A DNA stretch of 37,199 bases from Candidatus Andersenbacteria bacterium RIFCSPHIGHO2_02_FULL_46_16. GTDB taxonomy: Bacteria; Patescibacteriota; Andersenbacteria; UBA10190. The DNA lies in NCBI GenBank assembly GCA_001817065.1, contig MHHQ01000001.1, positions 1 to 37,199 on the forward strand, written 5' to 3'. The position numbers were made by a program, and so were the translations under genes. This document shows, piece by piece, positions 2 through 32,674 of the stretch. The notes below the pieces were generated by a model. The model made no database searches and had not been told where the DNA came from. It was given only the letters and a program-made list of their open reading frames with translations. Every line of letters begins with the position of its first letter. Positions within the stretch are counted from its first letter, which is position 1.

Positions 2-745
2 TCCGCTTACGACCTCGGCTCTCCGTTGCTTCGTTGGGATGGGTTATATGTCGGTAGCATCAACGCCGAAGGCCACATTGTCCCAACTATTACCGGTAAC
101 TACGACCTGGGCTCTACCGCTCTTCATTGGAACTCCCTCTACGTCGACTCCATCACCGCTTACGGTGACATCACTCCTAGTACCGACAGCTCCTACGACC
201 TTGGCTCCGATGCCACTCGATGGCTCAATGTCTTCTCTGATAGCGTAGAAACCACTACTTTAGTCATTGCCACCACCGGCTCCGCCCAAATCCCCGTCGG
301 TACTGGCCCCACAGTTGATCTTTCAGGTGAAGTCGCTATCGACACCACAGCCGACCAGTTTGTTTTCTTTGGCGCCACCGCCAAACAAGTAATCACACCT
401 AAAGAGTACAAGAGCGTAACTCTCGAAAGCCCGACCGATGCTGATAACTTTAACCTATTTAAAGCACCATATCCTCTGACCATCACAGATATCGAATGCG
501 TCGTTGACCCCGCCGGTGCCGGAGAGTCCGCAGTCGTTGACGTCCAGGAGCGCGACGGGACAGGGGACAATCCCGCGACTGTTGATGCCACCATCACTTG
601 CGATAACGACGGTGCCGCCGATGATGGCGCCCTCTCCAACGGCCCTATCGACTCCGGCGACTGGGTGTCATTAGATATCGGGACCGTAACCGGCACAGTC
701 ACACAATTGACTGTAACGGTGACTTATACGGCGGATGCACAATAA
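2..745 (+). CDS. C-terminal part of a repeat-rich surface protein (5' end outside window)
   Basis: The reading frame is open from the left edge, so this is the C-terminal ~247 residues of a longer protein. It begins with about 2.5 copies of a 31-residue repeat whose signature is YDLGS...RW..LY. Such repeats occur in phage tail-fibre-like and cell-surface proteins. A beta-rich, acidic, Gly/Asp/Thr-rich tail follows, ending VTQLTVTVTYTADAQ. Codon third positions are C-rich, like parts of the giant surface gene at 5330. No catalytic motif or membrane anchor is visible in the part present. Inferred role: exported or structural surface protein. The name is a description of repeats, not a family assignment. 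Confidence 0.7.
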   Translation, partial: SAYDLGSPLLRWDGLYVGSINAEGHIVPTITGNYDLGSTALHWNSLYVDSITAYGDITPSTDSSYDLGSDATRWLNVFSDSVETTTLVIATTGSAQIPVGTGPTVDLSGEVAIDTTADQFVFFGATAKQVITPKEYKSVTLESPTDADNFNLFKAPYPLTITDIECVVDPAGAGESAVVDVQERDGTGDNPATVDATITCDNDGAADDGALSNGPIDSGDWVSLDIGTVTGTVTQLTVTVTYTADAQ

Positions 746-746
746 A

Positions 747-1197
747 CCCGCACACCTATTTTTCTTTATGTATTACTTAAATATGTCAATAGACACAAAA
801 GATTATCATTACCTCTTTAGTATTACTAATTACCTAAAACAGAGGTTTTTCGACGAAAAACCTCCTAAGAAAATTAGGTGTGCGGGTAAACCCAAAACAC
901 TACTTCTCTTTATAAAATAATTTCTTATGTATTACGTATATCTAATAAAAAGTGACAAGGATAAGGAACTATATACAGGTTCGACAAATAACCTGCGACG
1001 AAGGCTTTGGGAACACAACCATGGAAAAAATTTATCTACTAAGTATAGAGCTCCATTCAGCTTAGTCTATTATGAAGCCTACCTTGACGAAAGTGACGCT
1101 CGGCATCGTGAAAGTAGCTTAAAACTCCGTGGAAATGCTTTGTCTCAATTAAAACGCCGCATCGCCCAAAGCCTTCTAAGAAAAATAGGTGTGCGGG
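747..1197. repeat. Inverted/direct repeat set around the GIY-YIG gene
   Basis: The 17-nt segment CCCGCACACCTATTTTT (747-763) is exactly complementary to 1181-1197, at the 3' end of the GIY-YIG gene. Its 12-nt core is also complementary to 875-886. The 875 and 1186 copies are direct repeats of each other (TAGGTGTGCGGG with similar flanks CTAAGAAAA). The gene at 927 is therefore bracketed by related ends, and its last ~9 codons are made of repeat sequence. This may be a remnant of an insertion or of a duplicated gene end. Confidence 0.7.
842..864. terminator. Perfect palindrome, possible bidirectional terminator
   Basis: GAGGTTTTTCG (842-852) and CGAAAAACCTC (854-864) are exact complements around a single A, giving an 11-bp hairpin ~100 nt after the stop codon of the surface-protein gene. 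There is no long T tract, so termination is only one reading. Confidence 0.4.
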
Positions 1198-1205
1198 TAA
1201 AGTAA
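927..1205 (+). CDS. GIY-YIG endonuclease superfamily protein (UPF0213-like)
   Basis: This is a 92-residue single-domain GIY-YIG protein. It has the N-terminal strand YYVYLIKS, the second half of the motif in LYTGSTNNLRRRLWEHN, and later Arg/Glu residues (RHRESSLK) where the family keeps its catalytic Arg and metal-binding Glu. Length fits the small stand-alone YhbQ/UPF0213 group, whose cellular role is poorly defined (structure-specific DNA cleavage is proposed for some members). The final residues LRKIGVRVK are encoded by the repeat described for 747-1197 and look like an extension read into repeat DNA. The start ATG is the only one that preserves the first strand. Confidence 0.85.
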   Translation: MYYVYLIKSDKDKELYTGSTNNLRRRLWEHNHGKNLSTKYRAPFSLVYYEAYLDESDARHRESSLKLRGNALSQLKRRIAQSLLRKIGVRVK

Positions 1206-1244
1206 TTTTCAATTTACAAATACCAATTTTCAAATAAACCTCCA

Positions 1245-1799
1245 ATGACTCAATTTTCAAAAAAGCAGCCACAAAAACAATTTCGCTTCGAAGTGGATCA
1301 GTCTGGCAGAGTAGAGGAATTAAGACGTCCCACTATAATTGCCATCGCTAATAACGAATGTGCCTATGCTTTACTAATGCCGGCAAAAATGAAGCGGACA
1401 CTTTACGAAATATACAGAACATATGGCAAGCCAAAAAGATTCGGAGTTGAGATTTTTTCCAAAGCCTTAATCTATACCATATCTCAATCATCATTGAATA
1501 TGCATGAGTTAATTATTGATTTGGAATATCCAGGATACAACGAGTTTATCTCCCAATCCGTTTCTAGGCATTTCAGAAAAATATATATTTCATTTGCGTC
1601 AATCGGTAAAAGCTCTCCCGCTCACAAAAAAGCGTATTTCACCTATAAGACGCGTCTTGTACCGAACAGTGTCATTAATAAAAGCAATATAAGGCATATT
1701 TTAGCCATAAAAGACGGCCGGAGAACTGTTACACCGAGAGTTTACACGGATTCGCAGTCCAACCGGCCTGTCAAAAGAAAACATAACAGAAGAAAATAG
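1245..1799 (+). CDS. Hypothetical 184-aa protein, first gene of the DUF3800 island
   Basis: No family is recognised with confidence. Visible features are a VDQSGRVEE stretch at residues ~17-25, IIDLEYPGYNEFI around 92, and SIGKSSPAHKKAY near 120. Short acidic strand motifs of the type VD.SG and IIDLE recall RNase H-like folds, and the VDQSG position resembles the (F/Y)xDESG start of DUF3800, but this is only an inference. The C-terminal tail (KDGRRTVTP onwards, very basic) matches the repeat seen at 1996-2105 and 3318-3420 (KNGPRTVTPP), so the tail may derive from repeat DNA. A minus-strand promoter-like pair overlaps its 3' end (1780-1808). Confidence 0.55.
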   Translation: MTQFSKKQPQKQFRFEVDQSGRVEELRRPTIIAIANNECAYALLMPAKMKRTLYEIYRTYGKPKRFGVEIFSKALIYTISQSSLNMHELIIDLEYPGYNEFISQSVSRHFRKIYISFASIGKSSPAHKKAYFTYKTRLVPNSVINKSNIRHILAIKDGRRTVTPRVYTDSQSNRPVKRKHNRRK

Positions 1800-1808
1800 C
1801 TATGTCAA
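1780..1808 (-). promoter_or_regulatory. Minus-strand promoter reading antisense into the 184-aa gene
   Basis: On the minus strand: TTGACA (1803-1808), 17-nt spacer, TATGTT (1780-1785). Transcription would run antisense into the 3' end of the gene at 1245-1799. Equivalent TTGACAT sites sit just after the two DUF3800 genes. Confidence 0.4.
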
Positions 1809-1873
1809 GAAAACTTACAAGCCATAAAAACAACAAACCTGACGTTTCTCCCCTATGATTAGCTATCTTAAAC

Positions 1874-1956
1874 AAAAAAACCCCCCGCTAACTGAGGTAT
1901 ATAAACCTCGGGCCGGGGATTTAATCTCATTATGCCAGCGCCGATTCATCTGTCAA
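1874..1956 (-). ncRNA. Hairpin RNA unit, copy A
   Basis: On the minus strand: -35 TTGACA (1951-1956), 16-nt spacer, -10 CATAAT (1929-1934). A predicted start near 1922 lies directly at the base of a hairpin (1881-1920), followed by seven T residues (complement of 1874-1880). Outer stem arms are AUCCCC and GGGGGGU, the inner stem is GAGGU/ACCUC and the loop is UUAUAU. Compared with copies B-D the outer arm has changed on both sides, preserving pairing. The GCC/GGC middle pairing is partly lost here. If transcribed, the product is ~45-50 nt and is almost entirely the hairpin plus U tract. Confidence 0.5.
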
Positions 1957-1995
1957 GGTATTATTTGCATCAAAAAAAGGAAATCAGACTTTTCT

Positions 1996-2105
1996 GCTTC
2001 AATCAAAGAGCTATTAGAGGCAACTAAGAATGGCCCCAGAACTGTTACACCCCCGGACAGAGCCGGACGATTCGCAGCCCACATTGGACCATCTACTCGC
2101 CATCG
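1996..2105. repeat. DUF3800-island repeat, copy 1
   Basis: About 100 bp that recurs at 3318-3420 with roughly 85-90% identity and, more distantly, in the 3' end of the gene at 1245. In the plus frame it reads KELLEATKNGPRTVTPP, but it is short, has no convincing start, and lies just upstream (in minus orientation) of a hairpin RNA unit. Many of the differences between copies 1 and 2 are silent in that frame, so decay of a coding module cannot be excluded. I do not call a gene. Confidence 0.6.
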
Positions 2106-2265
2106 AACCACCAAATAAAGTTATGTCAATCGCATTTTTCAACCTAAATTACTCACAAATCGCCAACAGGCTAAGTTCCAGCGTCTTAACCCTAAAGGGT
2201 AAGAAGAAATTTTGAACTTTTAGTTGTTATTTTTCATTTTTCTCTTAGCAATTTTCGTTAATCCT

Positions 2266-2985
2266 ATGCCAAATCCTAAACAAATTCAAAACAATAAAAC
2301 CGCAGCACCTGTCAATGTATTTATCGACGAGTCAGGCACATTGCCAGATCCAAAAGATAGATTGATAGTCATCAGCGCTGTAGGCATAAGAAACCTGAAG
2401 GAGGCTAATAATATCATTAGCCGGATTAAGTCTTCATTAAGGAAAACAAAGAAAAAAGAAATTAAAGAAATCAAGTTTTATTACGCTGGTCATAACACCA
2501 AAAGGCAATTTCTTTCTGGAATAGTTTCGGCCAACTTTGATATATTTTGCTTAATTGTAGATAAAAAGGGCAGAAAAATTGCAGACAGTCCCGTCAATTA
2601 TGCCATTTTACTTACAGAAATAGTTAATGAAGCCGTTGCTTGGTATAAACCAATACCAATTAAAGTAACTTCTGATAGGCATTTTCAAAGTCTCTACCAC
2701 CAAAAGGAGCTTAATAATTATCTAGGCAATAGCGTAGATAAAAAGACATCACAGACGATCAAACACGTTGATAGCCAGCAAAATAAGGTAGTCAACATAG
2801 CCGATATGGCGGCTGGAGCAATTCACTGGCAATACTCGGGTAAAAATTCTCAATATTATCGCTTAATTAAGGATAATATCATTTCCGAGAAGATTGTTAG
2901 CTGGCCAAGCTTAAAACAGAAATATATGACAAATAAAAAACTCACTCGAACCGATGCAAGCATCCATCCAAGTGAGATTACTTAA
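2266..2985 (+). CDS. DUF3800 family protein (copy 1)
   Basis: This 239-residue protein has the family's N-terminal strand VNVFIDESGT (residues ~14-23) and the C-terminal HVDSQQNKVVNIADMAAGAIHW element, in which Asp residues recur after a Q..iAD.. helix. These are the hallmark positions of DUF3800, a family generally predicted to have an RNase H-like fold; its biochemical role is not settled. The start MPNPKQIQN is shared with the genes at 3884 and 4647, so this ATG is preferred over the upstream TTG at 2224, which would add a spurious hydrophobic stretch. It lies between hairpin RNA copies A and B. A minus-strand promoter-like site lies just past its stop (2987-3014). Confidence 0.8.
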   Translation: MPNPKQIQNNKTAAPVNVFIDESGTLPDPKDRLIVISAVGIRNLKEANNIISRIKSSLRKTKKKEIKEIKFYYAGHNTKRQFLSGIVSANFDIFCLIVDKKGRKIADSPVNYAILLTEIVNEAVAWYKPIPIKVTSDRHFQSLYHQKELNNYLGNSVDKKTSQTIKHVDSQQNKVVNIADMAAGAIHWQYSGKNSQYYRLIKDNIISEKIVSWPSLKQKYMTNKKLTRTDASIHPSEIT

Positions 2986-2986
2986 T

Positions 2987-3014
2987 ATGATAACGCTGCA
3001 GCACATTATGTCAA
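2987..3014 (-). promoter_or_regulatory. Minus-strand promoter reading antisense into DUF3800 copy 1
   Basis: On the minus strand: TTGACA (3009-3014), 16-nt spacer, TATCAT (2987-2992). Transcription would start at the stop codon of the DUF3800 gene and run antisense through it. Confidence 0.4.
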
Positions 3015-3040
3015 GAGTCATGATTACAACAGAAAAAACT

Positions 3041-3120
3041 AAAAATCTCCCGCCATGTGAGGTATATAAACCTCGGCCGGAGATCCATGACCAGTATAGC
3101 GCTTCAAACAGCTTTGCCAA
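3041..3120 (-). ncRNA. Hairpin RNA unit, copy B
   Basis: On the minus strand: -35 TTGGCA (3115-3120), 16-nt spacer, -10 TATACT (3093-3098), with a predicted start near 3086. The hairpin occupies 3045-3084: outer stem AUCUCC/GGAGAU, a conserved G.G mismatch, middle stem GCC/GGC, a 3' internal loop ACAU, inner stem GAGGU/ACCUC and loop UUAUAU. A short U tract follows (five A on the plus strand at 3041-3045, then more A/T). The hairpin is identical to copy C, and the ~45 bp upstream of the promoter is also shared with copy C, so B and C are a tandem duplication of a ~155-bp unit. Confidence 0.5.
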
Positions 3121-3194
3121 CACTTATCGGATAGGGGGTACAAATGGGGTTTTAAAGCCATTCTCTTTTTCTTCTAATTGTCTTAGGACCTCAC

Positions 3195-3276
3195 AAAAAA
3201 ATCTCCCGCCATGTGAGGTATATAAACCTCGGCCGGAGATCCATTACCAGTATAGTGCTTCAAACAGTTTTGTCAA
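3195..3276 (-). ncRNA. Hairpin RNA unit, copy C
   Basis: On the minus strand: consensus -35 TTGACA (3271-3276), 16-nt spacer, -10 TATACT (3249-3254), then the hairpin at 3201-3240 with the same stems as copy B and a seven-U tract (plus-strand A at 3195-3201). This is the best-formed of the four units: near-consensus promoter, immediate stem-loop and U tract. As a transcript it would be ~45 nt with a terminator-like end. No protein-coding reading on the minus strand is evident. Confidence 0.55.
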
Positions 3277-3317
3277 TACCTATCGGATAAGGGATACAAA
3301 TAAGGGTTTAAAGCCAT

Positions 3318-3420
3318 TTTCTATCAAGGAGCTATTAGAGGCAACTAAAAATGGCCCCAGAACTGTTACACCTCCGGACAAAGCCGGACGATTCGCAGAC
3401 CACGCAGGCCATCTAATAAG
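3318..3420. repeat. DUF3800-island repeat, copy 2
   Basis: Second copy of the ~100-bp repeat at 1996-2105, again placed just beyond a hairpin RNA unit in the same orientation. Hairpin unit plus this repeat therefore make a larger duplicated block (about 1875-2105 and 3195-3420). Confidence 0.6.
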
Positions 3421-3548
3421 AAGATTAGCTATGTTTAAAGAATTGTCGAGATTTATTTGGGTAAGCGCTCACCGGTTAAGGAAGGTTGTGTATGTCCCCC
3501 TGGCCAGAGGAGGCAAGGAGGGTTTTTCAACACTCAAAAATGATAACC

Positions 3549-3571
3549 AAAAACCCGCTTTCGCGGGCTTT
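3549..3571 (-). terminator. Intrinsic terminator of the structured RNA
   Basis: On the minus strand: CCCGC-GAAA-GCGGG followed by five T. The T tract is on the minus side, fixing the direction. Confidence 0.7.
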
Positions 3572-3752
3572 GGGGCTGGTTCTCAACCAGTGCAGGTTTC
3601 GGGCTTGTCAGCCAATGTTGCTAGTCTAGCGTCAACTACATTACCTGTCAAGTCTAATTTTTCGTCACCACTAAGAAGTGGACGTGCGGGGATTTGCACC
3701 CAGGGAACCATGGCTGACAAACCCGATCCCACACTAAGTCACGCCCACTTCA
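3549..3752 (-). ncRNA. Structured ~200-nt RNA candidate with its own promoter and terminator
   Basis: On the minus strand an extended -10 box (3759-3767) predicts a start at ~3752, exactly at a 12-bp stem: GAAGUGGGCGUG (complement of 3740-3751) pairs with CACGUCCACUUC (complement of 3675-3686). One G.U wobble there exists only in the minus-strand RNA; the plus strand would have an A.C mismatch. A GGGUGCAAAUCCC loop inside resembles a tRNA T-arm. Downstream come a CAGGU/ACCUG stem enclosing two hairpins, one being GGCU-GACA-AGCC, then CUGGUU-GAG-AACCAG, then a terminator with a GAAA tetraloop. I do not recognise it as tmRNA, 6S, SRP or RNase P RNA. No ORF of note lies on this strand. Confidence 0.55.
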
Positions 3753-3758
3753 AGGGTC

Positions 3759-3767
3759 AGTATAGCA
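3759..3767 (-). promoter_or_regulatory. Extended -10 promoter of the structured RNA
   Basis: TGCTATACT on the minus strand (TGn extended -10) sits 7-8 nt before the first paired base of the 12-bp stem. There is no good -35, as expected for an extended -10. Confidence 0.5.
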
Positions 3768-3780
3768 TGTCCTTATACAC

Positions 3781-3860
3781 AAAATCCTCCGCCAAAGTGG
3801 AGTGTATAAACTCCTGGCCGAGGATGTACTCCAACATAACCAAACCAGTAAACGTGTCAG
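3781..3860 (-). ncRNA. Hairpin RNA unit, copy D
   Basis: On the minus strand: -35 CTGACA (3855-3860), 16-nt spacer, -10 TATGTT (3833-3838), then the hairpin at 3784-3825. Outer stem AUCCUC/GAGGAU and inner stem GGAGU/ACUCC differ from copies B/C on both strands of each stem (compensatory changes), while the G.G mismatch, GCC/GGC and the UUAUA loop are kept. The U tract is only four long, so read-through into the structured RNA at 3752 is possible. Its promoter lies 24 nt upstream of, and divergent from, the second DUF3800 gene. Confidence 0.5.
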
Positions 3861-3883
3861 TGACAAAATTCTAAATCCTAACT

Positions 3884-4570
3884 ATGCCAAATCCTAAACA
3901 AATCCTCAAGGCGAAACAACCCCCATTGTTTGCTTTTGTCGACGAAACGGGTATCACCAAAGACCCAAAACAACCCAAACTTGGCCTTGGTTTGTTAGTT
4001 ATAGATCGTCAGCCTCTCGTTATTAATCAAGTCTTGCGAGAAGTATTTCTTTGTGCCGTTCATGACATGAAAGCCGTGGAGGAAAGATTTAAATTCAAAT
4101 TTACATATATTACCCATAGCAGTCTGCCTTACTATAGAGCAATTATTGACATCCTTTCCCAATATAAAGATCACTGGCACTTCACTTCCATTCAAGCAAA
4201 GCGCAATCGTCAGCCCTTCTGGTCTCAATATCTGTTATTACTGACTAAATTACTTGGTTCCGCCGATCAACCATTAATTGTCCTCGCGGATCACTTGAAT
4301 AAACCAAAAAGGTCAAAAGCAGGCCTTTCAAGCCTCCTCAACAACACTCCTAATTTAATCAATATTTTACAAATTGAAAGCCAAGGAAGCATTTTGCTTC
4401 AAGTTGCTGATGTTCTCTTAGGAGCCACTGCTTATATAAAAACTGCTGGTAAAGACCAACTGAAAAGAGAAATATCTCAACGAGCTGCGGAATTACTAAG
4501 AATAAAAACGGGAGCCGGTATAGATCCAATCTATGCGACTCCCAACATTTATAAGGATAACAATAAGTGA
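3884..4570 (+). CDS. DUF3800 family protein (copy 2)
   Basis: This 228-residue protein has FAFVDETG at residues ~16-23 and IESQGSILLQVADVLLGATAY near the C-terminus, the paired acidic elements of DUF3800. The predicted fold is RNase H-like; the substrate is unknown. It shares the start MPNPKQI with the genes at 2266 and 4647, but the rest is quite diverged from copy 1, so these are not recent duplicates of the whole gene; only the leader was spread. Upstream are hairpin RNA copy D and the structured RNA, both on the other strand. A minus-strand promoter-like pair overlaps its 3' end. Confidence 0.8.
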   Translation: MPNPKQILKAKQPPLFAFVDETGITKDPKQPKLGLGLLVIDRQPLVINQVLREVFLCAVHDMKAVEERFKFKFTYITHSSLPYYRAIIDILSQYKDHWHFTSIQAKRNRQPFWSQYLLLLTKLLGSADQPLIVLADHLNKPKRSKAGLSSLLNNTPNLINILQIESQGSILLQVADVLLGATAYIKTAGKDQLKREISQRAAELLRIKTGAGIDPIYATPNIYKDNNK

Positions 4571-4581
4571 AGATATGTCAA
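4554..4581 (-). promoter_or_regulatory. Minus-strand promoter reading antisense into DUF3800 copy 2
   Basis: On the minus strand: TTGACA (4576-4581), 16-nt spacer, TATCCT (4554-4559), overlapping the end of the gene and pointing into it. Confidence 0.35.
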
Positions 4582-4646
4582 GTCTTTATTTGCATAAAAA
4601 AACGAGGGATATTACCGAGGGACGAAACCCCATATAAATCCTAAAT

Positions 4647-5087
4647 ATGCCAAATCCTAAACAAATCCAAAATACTCGAACACTAAGTCTAAAAAACCCT
4701 AATGTCAAAATCCAAATGACAAATCAAATCCCAAATCCAAATGCCAAATTCGACTTGGAGGAGCGCACATCAAGGTTTGGTGAGGCTGTTATAGATTTTT
4801 CCCATTCCATCCCTTATTCGCCCATTAACAAGCCCCTCATCAGCCAAATAGTCCGCTCTGGCACAAGTATCGGCGCTAACTACATGGAAGCAGATTGCGC
4901 AGAATCCAAAAAGGATTTCCGTCACAAGATTGCCATCTGTAAGAAAGAGTCAAAAGAAACTTGCCATTGGTTACGTATGATCGCTAAGGCCAACCCAGCG
5001 CAAACCAAGGAATGTCGCATCCTCTGGCAGGAAGCCCGTGAATTCACCCTGATATTCTCCTCGATTATTAATTCACCCAAGAAATGA
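4647..5087 (+). CDS. Four-helix-bundle (S23/IVP-type) protein with repeat-derived N-terminus
   Basis: Residues ~30-146 match the four-helix-bundle family first described from 23S rRNA intervening sequences: FGEAVIDFSHSIP, ISQIVRSGTSIGANYMEADCAESKKDFRHKI is split by me as ISQIVRSGTSIGANYMEA then a KKDFRHKIAICKKE helix, KETCHWLRMI and a final EAREFTLIFSSII helix. These proteins are small and common in CPR; a binding role is suspected but unproven. The first ~30 residues (MPNPKQIQN and then NVKIQMTNQIPNPNAKF) are encoded by the island leader plus the CPR low-complexity repeat, so the true domain start may be near residue 30. It is the last small gene before the giant surface gene. Confidence 0.8.
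   Translation: MPNPKQIQNTRTLSLKNPNVKIQMTNQIPNPNAKFDLEERTSRFGEAVIDFSHSIPYSPINKPLISQIVRSGTSIGANYMEADCAESKKDFRHKIAICKKESKETCHWLRMIAKANPAQTKECRILWQEAREFTLIFSSIINSPKK
4701..4750. repeat. CPR low-complexity repeat inside a coding region
   Basis: Tandem-like AATCCAAATGACAAATC units, the reverse complement of the ATTTGGATTTTGACATTTGG repeat found at several other places in the window. Here it is translated as part of the four-helix-bundle protein. Confidence 0.75.
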
Positions 5088-5275
5088 TTTTTAATATGAC
5101 AGCGGCAGGACTCATTCTAAACGTGCAAACCATACCTACTCTGCCGTCATTGGAGGCTTTGTCATTTGGCATTGAATTGCCTGCCGGCCGACTTATCCGT
5201 CATTTTATCTATCGTACCTTCAGTAAAGATGACGGCTTCAACGAACGTGGAAGCATAAGTACAGGCTATGCTATT

Positions 5276-5329
5276 TGGATTTTGGCATTTGTCATTGAAT
5301 TGACATTTGGATTTTGACATTTGGATTTT
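5276..5329. repeat. CPR low-complexity repeat upstream of the giant gene
   Basis: Units of TTTGGATTTTGACATTTGG run right up to the ATG at 5330. The 242-bp gap 5088-5329 otherwise holds no convincing gene; a 77-aa frame there has no support. Confidence 0.8.
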
Positions 5330-8300
5330 ATGAGCATTCTTCCCTTCAAAATAGATAAACGTGAATTGCTTAAGGTAGCGATATCATCGTTCTTAGCCTT
5401 CATCCTGACTTTCAGTCCCATTCTCCCTTCCTTCAAGCTCGAGCACTTCAAACTTCTCGGCGCCCTCACCTCCGAAGCCTCTTACATCACCTGGACCGGC
5501 GCCGGCAGCGATAACCGTTGGAGCAACCAGGAGAACTGGAACGAACATATCGTCCCGGGGGCTGACGACGTAGCTACATTTAATGGAACATCCATCAAGG
5601 ACGTCCTCATAGAAAATGATATCAGTGTCGCCGGCATTCAAATTGACGAAGATTACAATGGTACGGTTACCCTTACCTCTACCCAGCGCATAACAGTCGG
5701 CACTGATGGTATCACCCAAAAAGGTGGTACCTTCGACGGTGGCCAAACACCTATGATAGTATATGGCTCTGTAAAGGTGATGGCAGGACACTTCATCGCC
5801 CCAAAACAAGACCTTGAAATAAAACAGCACCTGGCCGTCTTCACCGATCAATTTGACCACAACACCGGCACCATCTATTTCACCGGCGGCGACCAAGTTA
5901 TCGTTGGCTCTGTCTCGCTTAATAATTTCATCAAACAAGTCACTGCTTACCATAATCTTCAACTGCAATCCGGCAGCCTCATAAACATTCAAGGTAAACT
6001 AACTCTTTCCGGCACTATCCTAGCTCCTCTCGACTTGCGCTCATCAATCGACGGCCAGCCCGCCTCAATTAACGCGCAAGGCGGTGCAGATGTATCATTC
6101 GTCGACGTCAAAGACATCATCAATATCGGTAATATAATCTCCTGCCCAGACACCTGCATCAATTCCGGCAACAATAACGGCTGGACGCTTCCGTCTCTGC
6201 CCGCTTCCATCGCTCCGTCTATAGACCAAGGCCTAGTGAGCGGCGTGATCGACAATGTGAAAAAAGTTGTCCCTGTAACCAACCTCCTACCCCCCATTAA
6301 CGCTAAACCAAGCCAAGACCAGCCCTCTATCAGCCCGTCAATTAGCCCAGAACCAGGCTCTGAGCCATTACCTGAAACACCAGCCACAGAAGAACCTGTC
6401 ACCGGTCCGCCTGCCCTCGGCAACCCTCCCCAGCTTTCCCCCTTGTCCGGTCTTTTCCCGGCCAAGCCTCTCGTAGTCGAAACAATCACCACCCCGGGCG
6501 AAGAAGGCGTCGTCTCGTTCGATGCCGATCAGGACCCAGCCTTCACCCTGGAATTCAAACCCGTGGACAAAGCCGTCATTTTCCAGCCTATCGATGCCGA
6601 AATAGTCTCCAAAGAGGACAATATAGAAGGTCGTACGATTCTCCCTTCAACCACCCCCGCTGCCTCACCCGACGCCGTAGAAACACCGAGCACCGGGAAA
6701 ACACCTGGTGTTGACGGAGAAACACCAGGTGTTGAGGAGGTGCCAGCCTCACCCGGGAGCACTCCAGGAGGGTACGTCAGTACCTCTCCTGGAGTGAAGG
6801 AGGGTGAGGAGCCGTCCAGAGTGCCGGTTATTTCTCCCACTCCCGCTGTCGCCGGTAGCATCACAACAACGGCCGGGAACACACCTGGTGTTGACGGAGA
6901 AACACCGGGTGTGAAGGAGGCCGTCACCCCCTCCGCCTCTCCTTTCTCCTTCCTCCGCAACTTCTTCTTCGCCTCAGCTGATGCCGAAGAAACAACCCCT
7001 ACCCCTTCACCGTCCGCTAGCCCCGCTACCGAACCCGTTGCCCAAACAATCGTTACAACCGCTGCACTTCTCGATCCCGATGGCGCCCTCACTTCCATCA
7101 AACCGATTATCCAAGAGGTAGACGGCACGACAACCATCAGTTTAGCCAAACCCGCCAGCAACTTCCGCCCTGGCAAATACACTCTCCAGGTCACTGTCAC
7201 CCAAGACGGGTACATCTCTGAAGCGAAGCAAGACTTCACTTGGGGTGTCCTTGCCATGAATATTAACCAATCCACCTACCAAGTAGGGGAAACCGCCCAG
7301 CTAGGCTTTGGTGTTCTAGATAACTATGGCCGCACCATCTGCGACGCAGTGTTATCCCTGGATATAACCTCACCGAGTGGTCAGACCACTACCCTCCACA
7401 CCCCCCAGGATATTCAAATATCTCCTGACTGCGGCGGTACCACCCACACCGTCCTCCCGGATTACCAGACCGCCTACATCCCGGACACAACCGGCACATA
7501 TAACCTGCTCCTCACTGCCCAAACCAAGAACGGCACCCGTCGTATGCGTCAGCAGCTTGAAGCTACCTCTGACGCCCCCTTTGTTACCAAGCGTGAGTCC
7601 GCCACCCGTCTCTATCCTCCCACAGAGTATTCCATGTCCGTCACCCTCACTGCTAACCAACCTTTCACCGGCTCCATCGTCGAACCCGTTCCTCCCGACT
7701 TTGCTATCACGAACATCTCTAACAATGGTGAGCTAATTACTGAATATAAAGAAACACCGAGCACCGAGGATACCGCCGTCGTTGACACACCGGGCACCGG
7801 GAAAACACCTGGTGTTGACGGAGAAACACCGGGTGTGGAGGAGGCCGCCACTGCAGCCACACCGGGTGTGTCTGCCGGGCCGGACTCACCCGGTGTGGAA
7901 GTCGGGCCTACACCCGCCGTGGAGGTCAGGAATTCAAGCACCGGGAAAACACCTGGTGTTGACGGAGAAACACCAGGTGTTGAGGAGGTGCTCTCACCCG
8001 GTGTGGGGGATGAAGCCGCCCCCCAAGTTGCCCGCCAATACATCATCTGGCACGACATCACCCTCCAAGCCAACGACTCTCTTACCCTCACCTACACCTA
8101 TGACGCCCCCGACATCAGCCCAGAATTTTACCTTCTCGGACCGCTACAGTTGATAGCAGCGAATGATAAATTAAGCGCGGCGGGCAACCAAAAAACCGCG
8201 CAGAGCGCAGTTTTTGGTGAGTCTAACTTGACGCACAACTCAGGCTTGTCAACCTATCAACAGTATAGCAGAGCAAATAAAAGTGAAACAGCAGTTTCTA

Positions 8301-25567: not shown

Positions 25568-26464
25568 ATGTCGTATGTCCCCCCGGATCGTCTCCTTCGT
25601 GCTGTTCTTTACGGTGGCGGTGCCACCTTGCTTTTGCTAGATCTTTATTTTTTGATCGAAGCTGCTCTTACCCGCAACTACGTACCGCTCGTTCCGGTCA
25701 TGGCTGGCATCTTTACCGCTGGCGGCTTGCTTCTAATTGTCTATGCCGAACAGCGCGCCCGTGAGGATGACAAAATAGCCCATCATCGCATTGCGCGCGT
25801 CTCTCATCAATTAACCGCTCCGCTCCAGTTACTGCAAGAAGACCTGTCTAATTTGCTGGTTAATTCCGATAATCTGCCATCAGATCAGCGTCTGCGGGTT
25901 AAGCAAATGGCTACTCGGTCTAAAGTAGTGCTGGACAACATTCGCGACGTCTTTTTAACTCTGCAAGCCCAGGAAGGAAAGATCTCTCAAGCTATCGAGG
26001 CCCAGGACATCTGTCCGCTCGTTGATCAACTGCGTCAGCAGATCGCGCCGCTTGCTTCTGCTCATAACGTCAATCTTCAATATAAGCCATTCTGTCCCAG
26101 CGCCACTGTTCGTGTGGATAAAAAACTCTTTCTCATTGCCTTAACGCACGTTATAGAAAACGCCGTTTATTACAGTCGCACCCCTGGTCATGTGACTGTC
26201 CATATAGTTCGCGGCAAAAAACATGTGCGCATTATCATCCAGGACAGGGGAATTGGTATCGCCCCCTCAGACGCAGACGCTGTCTTTAGACCCTGGGCTA
26301 GGGGAGAGCAATCCGCCCAATATGATCCGGATGGCATTGGTATCGGTTTGGCGTTAACCCGTCTCATCCTCAGGGAATTTGGCGGCTATATCTCCTGGAC
26401 CAAAAAATCACCCGGCCTCGGCACAATTTTCACCATCCGTCTGCCGCTCTCACAAATCAAATAA
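25568..26464 (+). CDS. Membrane sensor histidine kinase
   Basis: This 298-residue protein has two transmembrane helices (~12-31 and 40-60) with a tiny external loop, so it has no obvious sensing domain. Next are a HisKA-like dimerisation helix RIARVSHQLTAPLQLL with phospho-acceptor His80, and a HATPase_c domain: N-box ALTHVIENAVYY, G1 DRGIGIAPSD, F-box VFRPWARGE and G2 DGIGIGLALTRLI. It phosphorylates itself and would pass the phosphate to a response regulator; none is encoded nearby, so it is an orphan. The C-terminal 80 residues are duplicated at 29408-29646. Leaderless-type promoter directly upstream. Confidence 0.88.
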   Translation: MSYVPPDRLLRAVLYGGGATLLLLDLYFLIEAALTRNYVPLVPVMAGIFTAGGLLLIVYAEQRAREDDKIAHHRIARVSHQLTAPLQLLQEDLSNLLVNSDNLPSDQRLRVKQMATRSKVVLDNIRDVFLTLQAQEGKISQAIEAQDICPLVDQLRQQIAPLASAHNVNLQYKPFCPSATVRVDKKLFLIALTHVIENAVYYSRTPGHVTVHIVRGKKHVRIIIQDRGIGIAPSDADAVFRPWARGEQSAQYDPDGIGIGLALTRLILREFGGYISWTKKSPGLGTIFTIRLPLSQIK

Positions 26465-29021: not shown

Positions 29022-29133
29022 ATCGTATCCAGAGTACGAGGATGCTAAGAGAACTGGCTCGACGCCTCGCCCGCAACCCTTAAGGAAACTTAGAATGGGT
29101 GCGAACTCCAGCCCTTATTGGGGTAGATACTTT
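29022..29133 (+). ncRNA. SAM-I (S-box) riboswitch aptamer
   Basis: Conserved core of the S-adenosylmethionine aptamer in order: P1 GTATC (29025-29029) with GATAC (29126-29130); CAGAG; P2 CGAGG/CCTCG; AACTGGCTCGACG (the ACTGGCyCGACG segment also recalled from the Bacillus yitJ S-box); CGCAACC; P4 ACCC...GGGT capped by TAAG-GAAA-CTTA; then GGGTGCGAACTCCAGC (the GGTGC-AA-TCCAGC signature). A promoter precedes it and an intrinsic terminator follows 13 nt after it, so it is built as a transcription-off switch. Known S-boxes control methionine and SAM genes; the gene downstream is not one. Confidence 0.85.
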
Positions 29134-29145
29134 GCAAACGTATAT

Positions 29146-29177
29146 ACCGCCTCAATGGGCGGTTGTTTTGTTCTTTT
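29146..29177 (+). terminator. Expression-platform terminator of the riboswitch
   Basis: ACCGCC/GGCGGT stem (29146-29151, 29158-29163) followed by TGTTTTGTTCTTTT. Confidence 0.75.
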
Positions 29178-29197
29178 CAAAATCCAGGGAGTTTACT

Positions 29198-29662
29198 ATG
29201 CTCTACCGCAAAGTGTGCCAATTAAATGCCGTTAAGAAGACTCGACACTCTTATTGTTCAGCATTTATCTGCCATCTAGCTGAACCAACAACTTTGTATA
29301 ACTGGCTCGACTACGTTATCGCCGAGATACTCGACGATCTTAAACTCGACAAACCAGACAGGTTTGATCTTGCGATTAATGAGCAGCAGCCAAGCCAGTA
29401 CACGAGTAAAAAGCATGCTCGCATCATCGTCCAAGACCGGGGGATTGGCATCGCCCCCTCAGACACGGATGCTGTTTTTCGGCCATGGGCTAGGGGAGAG
29501 CAATCCGCCCAATATGATCCGGATGGCATTGGAATCGGTTTGGCTCTAACCCGTCTCATTCTCAGGGAATTTGGCGGCTATATCTTCTGGACCAAAAAAT
29601 CTCCGGGACTTGGCACTATCTTCACCATTCGCCTGCCGCTATTTCGCTCAACTGGCTCTTGA
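29198..29662 (+). CDS. Chimeric truncated kinase: novel N-terminus plus HATPase_c C-terminus
   Basis: A 154-residue protein. Residues ~71-154 (ARIIVQDRGIGIAPSD, FRPWARGEQSAQYD, DGIGIGLALTRLI, GTIFTIRLPL) duplicate the end of the kinase at 25568. The preceding ~70 residues (MLYRKVCQLNAVKKTRHSYC, then NWLDYVIAEILDDLKLD) are unrelated to it and not recognised. The N-box is missing, so ATP binding would be incomplete unless supplied by a partner. Most nucleotide differences from the kinase copy are silent, which suggests selection on the protein. The start at 29198 has a good GGGAG 7 nt upstream; an earlier GTG at 29099 overlaps the riboswitch. It is the only gene downstream of the SAM-I riboswitch. 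Confidence 0.65.
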   Translation: MLYRKVCQLNAVKKTRHSYCSAFICHLAEPTTLYNWLDYVIAEILDDLKLDKPDRFDLAINEQQPSQYTSKKHARIIVQDRGIGIAPSDTDAVFRPWARGEQSAQYDPDGIGIGLALTRLILREFGGYIFWTKKSPGLGTIFTIRLPLFRSTGS

Positions 29663-31142: not shown

Positions 31143-31216
31143 GCCCCTGTAGCTCAACTGGATAGAGCGGCGGCGTTCTAAGCCGAAGGTTGCAAGTTCG
31201 AGTCTTGCCGGGGGCA
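31143..31216 (+). tRNA. tRNA-Arg (TCT)
   Basis: Acceptor GCCCCTG/CGGGGGC, D-arm GCTCAACTGGATAGAGC, anticodon loop GTTCTAA (anticodon TCT) and T-arm GCAAGTTCGAGTCTTGC. CCA is encoded (31217-31219) and is also part of the 100-bp inverted repeat that starts here. Confidence 0.93.
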
Positions 31217-32674
31217 CCAGTAAGGAAAAGTCAAATTCCGTTGGCTCGCCTCGCTTTGCTCGGCGACCAAATTGTAAGGGATTTTGGGCGAAAAAATCAA
31301 TTGGCGGTTTTGTAAAATGTGGTTCGAGCCGATATTTTTTAGAAATGTTGTTATTTCTTTTTTGTTTTCCGTTTCCACCAATTTTGCGGCTTGATTAAGG
31401 GATAAAACAAATTCACAAGCCGGTTCGAGCCAAGACAACCCTTTTTGTTCAAAGTCGCTAATTTTCTCTTGCAAACTAACTTTTTGCGATAACAATTCCT
31501 GCTTTTTGGCGGCGTATTCTTCTGTGGATAAAGCGTCTGCCAAATAGACATCGAGCAGTTTTGCCAACTTTATCTCCACTTGTTTTAACTGCTCTTTTAA
31601 ACTTTCCACTTTTGAATGAGCTTGTTGTTCTGCTTGTTCCTGTTCGCTATCCAACGCCGCCAAAACTTTCTCGGTGTCTTGGCTCGACAAAGAAACTTTT
31701 TGAAGAAAAGATTTAATTTGCTCACTTAAAACTTCCTCTCGCAAATAATGCTTTTCTTGGCAAACTCCTTTTTTCTTGGTGCACCGATAATAATTGTGTC
31801 CTTTCTGGATTTCGGCGGTGATACTCGCCCCGCAGGAAGCGCATTTTAACAAGCCAAGAAAAGCAAAATTGTGTTTTCTGACTTCTTGCACTTTTCCTCG
31901 TTTATTCATTACTTCCTGGCACTTATCAAAAAGTTTCTTTGAAATTAATGGCTCGTGTTGTCCCTCAAAAATTTCCACACGATATTTCATAAGGCCAATA
32001 TAGAAAATATTTTGTAGAATACTTTGCACATTACTCAACGCTATCTCTTTGCCGAGATTGCCGCGTAAACCATTTTCCTTGCACCAATTTGCGAGAGATT
32101 TCAAGGTATATTCGCCAGTGGCGTAAAGTTCAAAAAGTTTTTTCACTTTCGGGGCTTTACTTTTATCAATATCAATCATTCTCGTTTTGGAATTATTCAA
32201 ATAACCCACTGGCGCCCAGCCGGGCCAAACGCCATTTCGTATTTTCTGCCGCAAACCTCGCTTCACATTCTCTCGCAAATTATCTACAAAATATTTTGAT
32301 TGACCAAAAGCGATGCTCAGCATAAACAAACCCTGTGGCGTTGGCTCAAACCAAAAGGTGGGAAATTTGAGGGACTTAATCAAGCCGCGATCAACGAAAT
32401 GGATTATCTTTCCGCCGTCTACAGAATTGCGTGCAAGGCGATCTGGGTGCCAAGAAATAATTCCATCTGCTTTTCCTCTCTCAATTAATGACAACATTTC
32501 TGCGAATTTCATTCGCCCGGGTTCTTTGGCAGTTTTTGCCTCGCACAGCGAGGCGACAATTTCAAGTTTTTCTTTGGCGGCAAATTCTTTTAGCTCAACT
32601 TGTTGAGCTTCAATTGAAAGAACTTGTCGGTCATCTTCTTCGGTGCTCTTGCGAGCATAGATAATATATTTCAT
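31178..32674 (-). CDS. Large serine recombinase (site-specific integrase/invertase)
   Basis: This 498-residue protein has a resolvase domain with YARKSTEEDDRQVLSIEAQ (catalytic Ser10) and DRLARNSVDGGKI. The Recombinase domain comprises FVDNLRENVKRGLRQKIRNG and GWAPVGYLNN. A zinc ribbon (Cys278/281 and Cys298/305) is followed by a long coiled coil (EQEQAEQQAHSKVESLKEQL), the layout of phage-type large serine integrases. The final ~30 residues are read from the inverted repeat and then from the antisense of tRNA-Arg (YWCPRQDSNLQPSA), so the natural protein probably ended near SPKIPYNL and the C-terminus is a by-product of integration. Good RBS AAAGGAG upstream of the ATG. Confidence 0.88.
   Translation of the reverse strand: MKYIIYARKSTEEDDRQVLSIEAQQVELKEFAAKEKLEIVASLCEAKTAKEPGRMKFAEMLSLIERGKADGIISWHPDRLARNSVDGGKIIHFVDRGLIKSLKFPTFWFEPTPQGLFMLSIAFGQSKYFVDNLRENVKRGLRQKIRNGVWPGWAPVGYLNNSKTRMIDIDKSKAPKVKKLFELYATGEYTLKSLANWCKENGLRGNLGKEIALSNVQSILQNIFYIGLMKYRVEIFEGQHEPLISKKLFDKCQEVMNKRGKVQEVRKHNFAFLGLLKCASCGASITAEIQKGHNYYRCTKKKGVCQEKHYLREEVLSEQIKSFLQKVSLSSQDTEKVLAALDSEQEQAEQQAHSKVESLKEQLKQVEIKLAKLLDVYLADALSTEEYAAKKQELLSQKVSLQEKISDFEQKGLSWLEPACEFVLSLNQAAKLVETENKKEITTFLKNIGSNHILQNRQLIFSPKIPYNLVAEQSEASQRNLTFPYWCPRQDSNLQPSA
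31214..31313. repeat. 100-bp inverted repeat 1, left arm
   Basis: Exact inverted copy of 32738-32837. Begins with GCACCAG at the tRNA 3' end and covers the recombinase's 3' end. Confidence 0.92.

Follow-up and report, generated by a model that had tools for sequence, protein, structure and literature searches.

Short hairpin RNAs convergent with genes for a predicted BECR-fold protein in Patescibacteria: a candidate type III-like toxin-antitoxin module

We analyzed a 37,199-nucleotide stretch of contig MHHQ01000001.1 (here called the window) from the genome of Candidatus Andersenbacteria bacterium RIFCSPHIGHO2_02_FULL_46_16 (GCA_001817065.1; G000 in our set), which comprises 1.36 Mb in 32 contigs and has five DUF3800 domains/genes. 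The initial annotation had described four minus-strand units, each a promoter followed by a hairpin, interleaved with two DUF3800 genes. All four units were found by reading the sequence, and the domains of both genes were verified by PF12686 matches (Table 1). Each unit has a sigma70-like promoter with a 16-nt spacer, matching the consensus at 11/12 (A), 10/12 (B), 11/12 (C), or 9/12 (D) positions, and then a hairpin and a U-tract. Folding energies of the hairpins range from -19 to -21.7 kcal/mol, with z-scores of -2.5 (A), -5.3 (B), -5.2 (C), and -4.9 (D). The G.G mismatch and UUAUA loop reported for the four copies are present in every one, and the GCC/GGC helix is indeed weakened in A. Unit D lies just upstream of DUF3800 gene 2 and is not arranged tail-to-tail with it. 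Units B and C form a 126-nt tandem duplication (90% identity), and an 85-nt flanking repeat (93%) is common to A and C (1998-2082 and 3319-3403); hence, four copies are present as claimed, but only about three are independent. A partial third copy of the 85-nt repeat is found at 1710-1735, at the end of an open reading frame of unknown function (1245-1799). Elsewhere on the minus strand, at 3541-3780, there is further promoter-like sequence, an element that recurs in inverted form (3599-3619/3706-3726), and a hairpin resembling a strong terminator, possibly a second small RNA.

Table 1. Hairpin RNA units and DUF3800 genes of the window
Feature	Coordinates	Strand	Elements	Remarks
Unit A	1874..1956	minus	-35 TTGACA 1951-1956; -10 CATAAT 1929-1934; hairpin 1880-1920; U-tract ~1874-1880	orphan RNA
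Unit B	3041..3120	minus	-35 TTGGCA 3115-3120; -10 TATACT 3093-3098; hairpin 3045-3084	orphan RNA; tandem duplicate of C
Unit C	3195..3276	minus	-35 TTGACA 3271-3276; -10 TATACT 3249-3254; hairpin 3201-3240; U-tract 3195-3201	orphan RNA
Unit D	3781..3860	minus	-35 CTGACA 3855-3860; -10 TATGTT 3833-3838; hairpin 3784-3825	
DUF3800 gene 1	2266..2985	plus	PF12686, E 1.8e-11	convergent with units B/C
DUF3800 gene 2	3884..4570	plus	PF12686, E 1.1e-6	divergent from unit D

A covariance model built from units A to C (R1) recovered unit A at an E value of 1.8e-17 and found unit D, which had no part in building it. Besides D, R1 matched sequences in the genomes G004, G016 (two copies), and G023 and, weakly, G008. 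In all four genomes, the hairpin lies on the opposite strand, directly past the stop codon of the same ~135-amino-acid protein. An exact-pattern search gave one match to the inner stem-loop of D: the hairpin core of D is identical in the G004 copy, which is paired with an intact gene for the ~135-amino-acid protein, while the promoter spacers of the two are unrelated. Since the A-to-C model finds D as well as copies in other genera and families (E values down to 1e-10), and since the D core recurs in G004, we conclude that the units go beyond chance resemblance. The search of candidate phyla radiation genomes that the initial annotation had proposed thus uncovered the same RNA across Patescibacteria. 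Weak model matches in G248, G287, G163, and G027, which read as ordinary terminators, and one at G124:C4 were left uncounted. Rfam gave no relevant match, either for the window or for nine RNA loci elsewhere.

The RNA gene is ~50 nt long and has a near-consensus promoter, a hairpin with a G.G mismatch, an asymmetric internal loop, a UUAUA loop, and a U-tract. Over 104 aligned copies, 95.6% of cells pair. This figure is biased towards the structure, which guided the alignment; neither the slid control nor the inspection of single copies depends on the figure alone. The covariation score was 0.457, compared with 0.07-0.18 in the slid controls, and both sides had changed in 13 of 14 pairs. With one often-C.A pair set aside, 151 cells were G-U and 5 were A-C, which indicates that the structure under selection is that of the minus-strand RNA. 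The earlier suggestion that compensatory change marks a selected RNA is supported by the larger alignment, with double changes, failing slid controls, and a retained promoter all on its side. About 90% or more of the copies retain A78, both G bases of the mismatch, and the UUAUA loop, as might be expected if loop and mismatch were recognized in trans. Some contigs carry tandem arrays, either two RNAs per gene or repeated gene-RNA pairs together with solitary RNAs (L036 [G157:C2], L128, L131, and L054).

Using five members of the ~135-amino-acid protein family as queries, we searched 380 genomes of the phylum and detected the family in 26, with 33 full-length occurrences, of which 31 are uninterrupted. 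A scan of GTDB contigs gave 130 relatives, from which 79 distinct loci were kept; these overlap the 380-genome set. Their titles name Peregrinibacteria, Peribacteria, Magasanikbacteria, Moranbacteria, Uhrbacteria, Saccharibacteria, Woesebacteria, and other Patescibacteria. One family gene with its RNA (L063) lies in a metagenome-assembled genome labelled Nitrospirae, through either a binning error or transfer outside Patescibacteria. The protein has no family-level match in Pfam, NCBIfam, PADLOC, or PHROGs, no relative by sequence in the PDB, and no relatives in phages, plasmids, or IMG/VR. A profile search at maximum sensitivity detected no remnant of the gene inside the window.

The pairing of gene and RNA is strict. 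With a second model (R2, built from 35 sequences), every GTDB locus (79/79) gave an RNA match that immediately follows the protein gene's stop codon on the other strand, at -18 to +25 nt from the stop codon and mostly at -5 to +14, with the U-tract usually within 15 nt of it. By eye, the hairpin was seen at the same place in 31/31 intact genes of the 380 genomes, two of the hairpins being enlarged or divergent (L039 and L056); only one of these genes, in G157:C2, has a tandem RNA pair behind it. The RNA promoters scored a mean of 9.9/12, compared with 7.15 in random windows, and 91% of them reached at least 9, compared with 7.6% of random windows. The regions upstream of the protein genes gave a weaker signal than the RNA promoter (42% at 9 or more, against a null of 11%).

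An AlphaFold2 model from 77 members of the protein family (pLDDT, 95.5; pTM, 0.87) has helices followed by strands at 90-93, 100-108, 114-122, and 128-135. The best Foldseek matches, which give moderate support, were phage polyvalent proteins (TMq, 0.51-0.58; E values, 2e-3 to 4e-3, none at or below 0.001); structural matches in the PDB were weak, with HigB2 second and an archaeal RelE lower in the list. Two residues are invariant in 77/77 members: His58, in the helix at 53-62, and Ser132, in the last strand (128-135). They fit the published signature of BECR/PBECR RNases, a His in a helix and a Ser/Thr in strand 4. The protein is strongly basic, with ~30 K+R and 12 D+E. Across the 77 members, no PBECR or RelE/ParE profile in Pfam matched at an E value of 0.1 or below. 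Nor did the protein match the ToxN, CptN, or TenpN families in Pfam or NCBIfam; the fold search favors a BECR-type protein. The model suggests a BECR-like, metal-independent RNase, as a prediction rather than a proven membership.

RNAs occur without the protein, but the converse was not seen. In the 380 genomes, no family gene runs into 19 of the RNAs: the 4 of the window, 13 solitary copies elsewhere, and 2 additional ones located immediately upstream of a family gene. Broken family genes also retain the RNA, whether interrupted by stop codons (G155, G175, L135, and L137), truncated (G269 and contig C22 of G000), or deleted to ~32 codons (G309:C21); those with in-frame stops are probably pseudogenes. 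No intact family gene without the RNA was seen among the 79 GTDB loci and the 31 genes of the 380 genomes. Judged from sequence, the linkage of the two genes, the structure and promoter of the RNA, and this asymmetry are established. An RNA alone but never an intact gene alone is the pattern expected of a toxin that a cell can keep only together with the antidote, although this is not proof. Such asymmetry is typical of toxin-antitoxin modules, and a second role of the RNA would produce it too. Solitary RNAs adjoin HepT/BrnT/CopG and DUF433/DUF5615 modules, and some RNAs adjoin integrases.

The reading that we prefer, with a probability of roughly 65%, is a type III-like toxin-antitoxin module in which a convergent, single-hairpin RNA is the antitoxin and the protein, an RNase of predicted BECR fold, is the toxin; the window would then hold orphan antitoxins. 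The ~135-amino-acid protein would act as a toxin, and the RNA, transcribed from a promoter stronger than that of the protein gene, would fold and bind it directly, occluding the active site as a pseudo-substrate. Loss of the RNA would free the RNase. We infer the direct neutralization from the conserved sequence and structure of the RNA. In the window, the protein gene would be gone, and the four RNA genes that are left would be either relics or a safeguard should a toxin of this family come in. The fuller statement, that this is an undescribed type of toxin-antitoxin system of Patescibacteria in which one convergent ~50-nt hairpin RNA neutralizes a BECR-fold RNase and solitary RNAs are kept as immunity against incoming family toxins, we hold to be a little better than an even bet.

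Two other readings also take the protein as the partner. The RNA might be a cofactor or substrate of the protein outside any toxin-antitoxin system, for example a hairpin that the protein processes or that activates it. The strict pairing of the protein with a structured RNA and the basic character of the protein would fit such a role; yet a patchy distribution (26/380 genomes), repeated decay of the protein with the RNA kept, and RNAs without the protein are odd for an enzyme-cofactor pair, and no variable guide segment was seen in the RNA. We therefore consider this reading unlikely. About equally unlikely is type I-like antisense action, in which the RNA would pair with the 3' end of the mRNA and block or destabilize it rather than bind the protein. 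The convergent, abutting layout does provide perfect complementarity to any mRNA that reads past the stop codon, so the preferred module might itself include an antisense component. Moreover, many copies have an A-rich 5' leader, with which the hairpin resembles a terminator on either strand, and weak plus-strand model matches occur at the same places. However, pairing in cis needs no conserved sequence or structure, whereas loop, mismatch, and stem are preserved from family to family, and the G-U usage reflects selection on the RNA's own fold. RNAs also persist without any mRNA partner, and type I toxins are usually small hydrophobic proteins (PMC6563280), in contrast to the basic globular protein here.

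The initial annotation had instead raised DUF3800 as a partner of the RNA, or a selfish repeat. The former can draw on the existence of DUF3800-named RNA motifs in Rfam and on proximity: an RNA lies within ~2 kb of DUF3800 at three loci (the window, G323:C16, and G247:C36), whereas ~0.05 would be expected by chance. At G323:C16, the RNA is 155 nt downstream of and opposite to the DUF3800 gene, with a 23S_rRNA_IVP gene beyond, as in the window. The anticipated enrichment is thus real, but it concerns only 3 of ~40 RNA loci, and at G247:C36 the RNA also adjoins a gene of the ~135-amino-acid family. Among the ~110 DUF3800 genes, found in 81/380 Patescibacteria genomes, ~106 have no such RNA nearby, against the 79/79 association with the ~135-amino-acid protein; we therefore rejected DUF3800 as the regular partner. 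Spacing and orientation vary, as with D upstream of gene 2. Even at an E value of 5 or below, 700-5400 contained no match to an Rfam DUF3800 model. Enrichment is expected if both occupy the same variable islands, which DUF3800 genes and RNAs probably share. We judge a DUF3800 partnership of the window RNAs improbable. No relatives of the window's DUF3800 protein were found in GTDB contigs. Least credible of all is a mobile or selfish hairpin repeat (REP/MITE-like) or a set of plain terminators. Genomes do carry several copies, some in tandem, and a Y1_Tnp transposase is present elsewhere in the window. But flanks are unshared apart from small tandem duplications, the promoter is kept and the hairpin with it while spacers diverge, and covariation comes with strand-specific G-U pairs; the fixed position at the stop codon of one gene refutes the repeat in this form.

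The toxin-antitoxin module favored here resembles type III modules (ToxIN, CptIN, and TenpIN) in combining a predicted endoribonuclease with a small structured RNA, its probable binding partner, and in the stable linkage of the two genes (79/79 and 31/31). In type III modules, the RNA lies upstream of the toxin gene in one operon, and the toxins have a fold other than BECR. Type III antitoxin RNAs are repeats that form pseudoknots (PMC8860590 and PMC5772629). The module here has instead a single plain hairpin with its own promoter, downstream of and convergent with the gene, and a protein of predicted BECR fold. With BECR-fold RNases (PBECR domains of phage polyvalent proteins; RelE/ParE, HigB, and BrnT), the protein shares the predicted fold and the helix-His/strand-Ser/Thr signature. 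Known free-standing BECR toxins of toxin-antitoxin modules have protein antitoxins and are type II (PMC11980606); here the partner is an RNA, and the protein has no detectable sequence similarity to Pfam models. The Rfam motifs named for DUF3800, such as DUF3800-I (RF02969) and DUF3800-IX (RF02968) (PMC11701678), are likewise short structured RNAs tied by name to DUF3800 genes. The window RNA matches none of them, is not consistently adjacent to DUF3800, and is regularly paired with another protein. The protein and RNA families of AbiF also differ from those of the module. AbiF of C. difficile is comparable as a protein controlled by a structured noncoding RNA in a type III-like manner (PMC12373285), but the convergent stop-codon arrangement seen here is not AbiF's. 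We found no description of the RNA-protein module in the open-access literature. In Patescibacteria, genomes are very small and few regulatory RNAs are known. This module, reached from four orphan copies in one window, is phylum-wide and has no entry in any of the RNA and protein family libraries that we consulted. If the toxin-antitoxin reading is true, a convergent single-hairpin RNA with a BECR-fold protein would be a new architecture among RNA-controlled toxins.

Several other features of the window were observed. The two DUF3800 genes and the adjacent 23S_rRNA_IVP gene start (2254-2287, 3872-3905, and 4635-4668) with an almost identical stretch of 20-30 bases (ATGCCAAATCCTAAACAAAT, MPNPKQI), as though different genes had been exchanged behind one shared start. 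A 21-nt sequence occurs in inverted and direct copies (746-766, 867-887, and 1178-1198; 95-100% matching) around a GIY-YIG gene (927-1205). A shorter open reading frame repeats the C-terminal portion of a histidine kinase-like gene (25568-26464 and 29099-29662), probably through partial duplication. Finally, the 3' end of a serine recombinase gene (31143-32674) overlaps a tRNA gene on the opposite strand, and the region looks like an integrated element.
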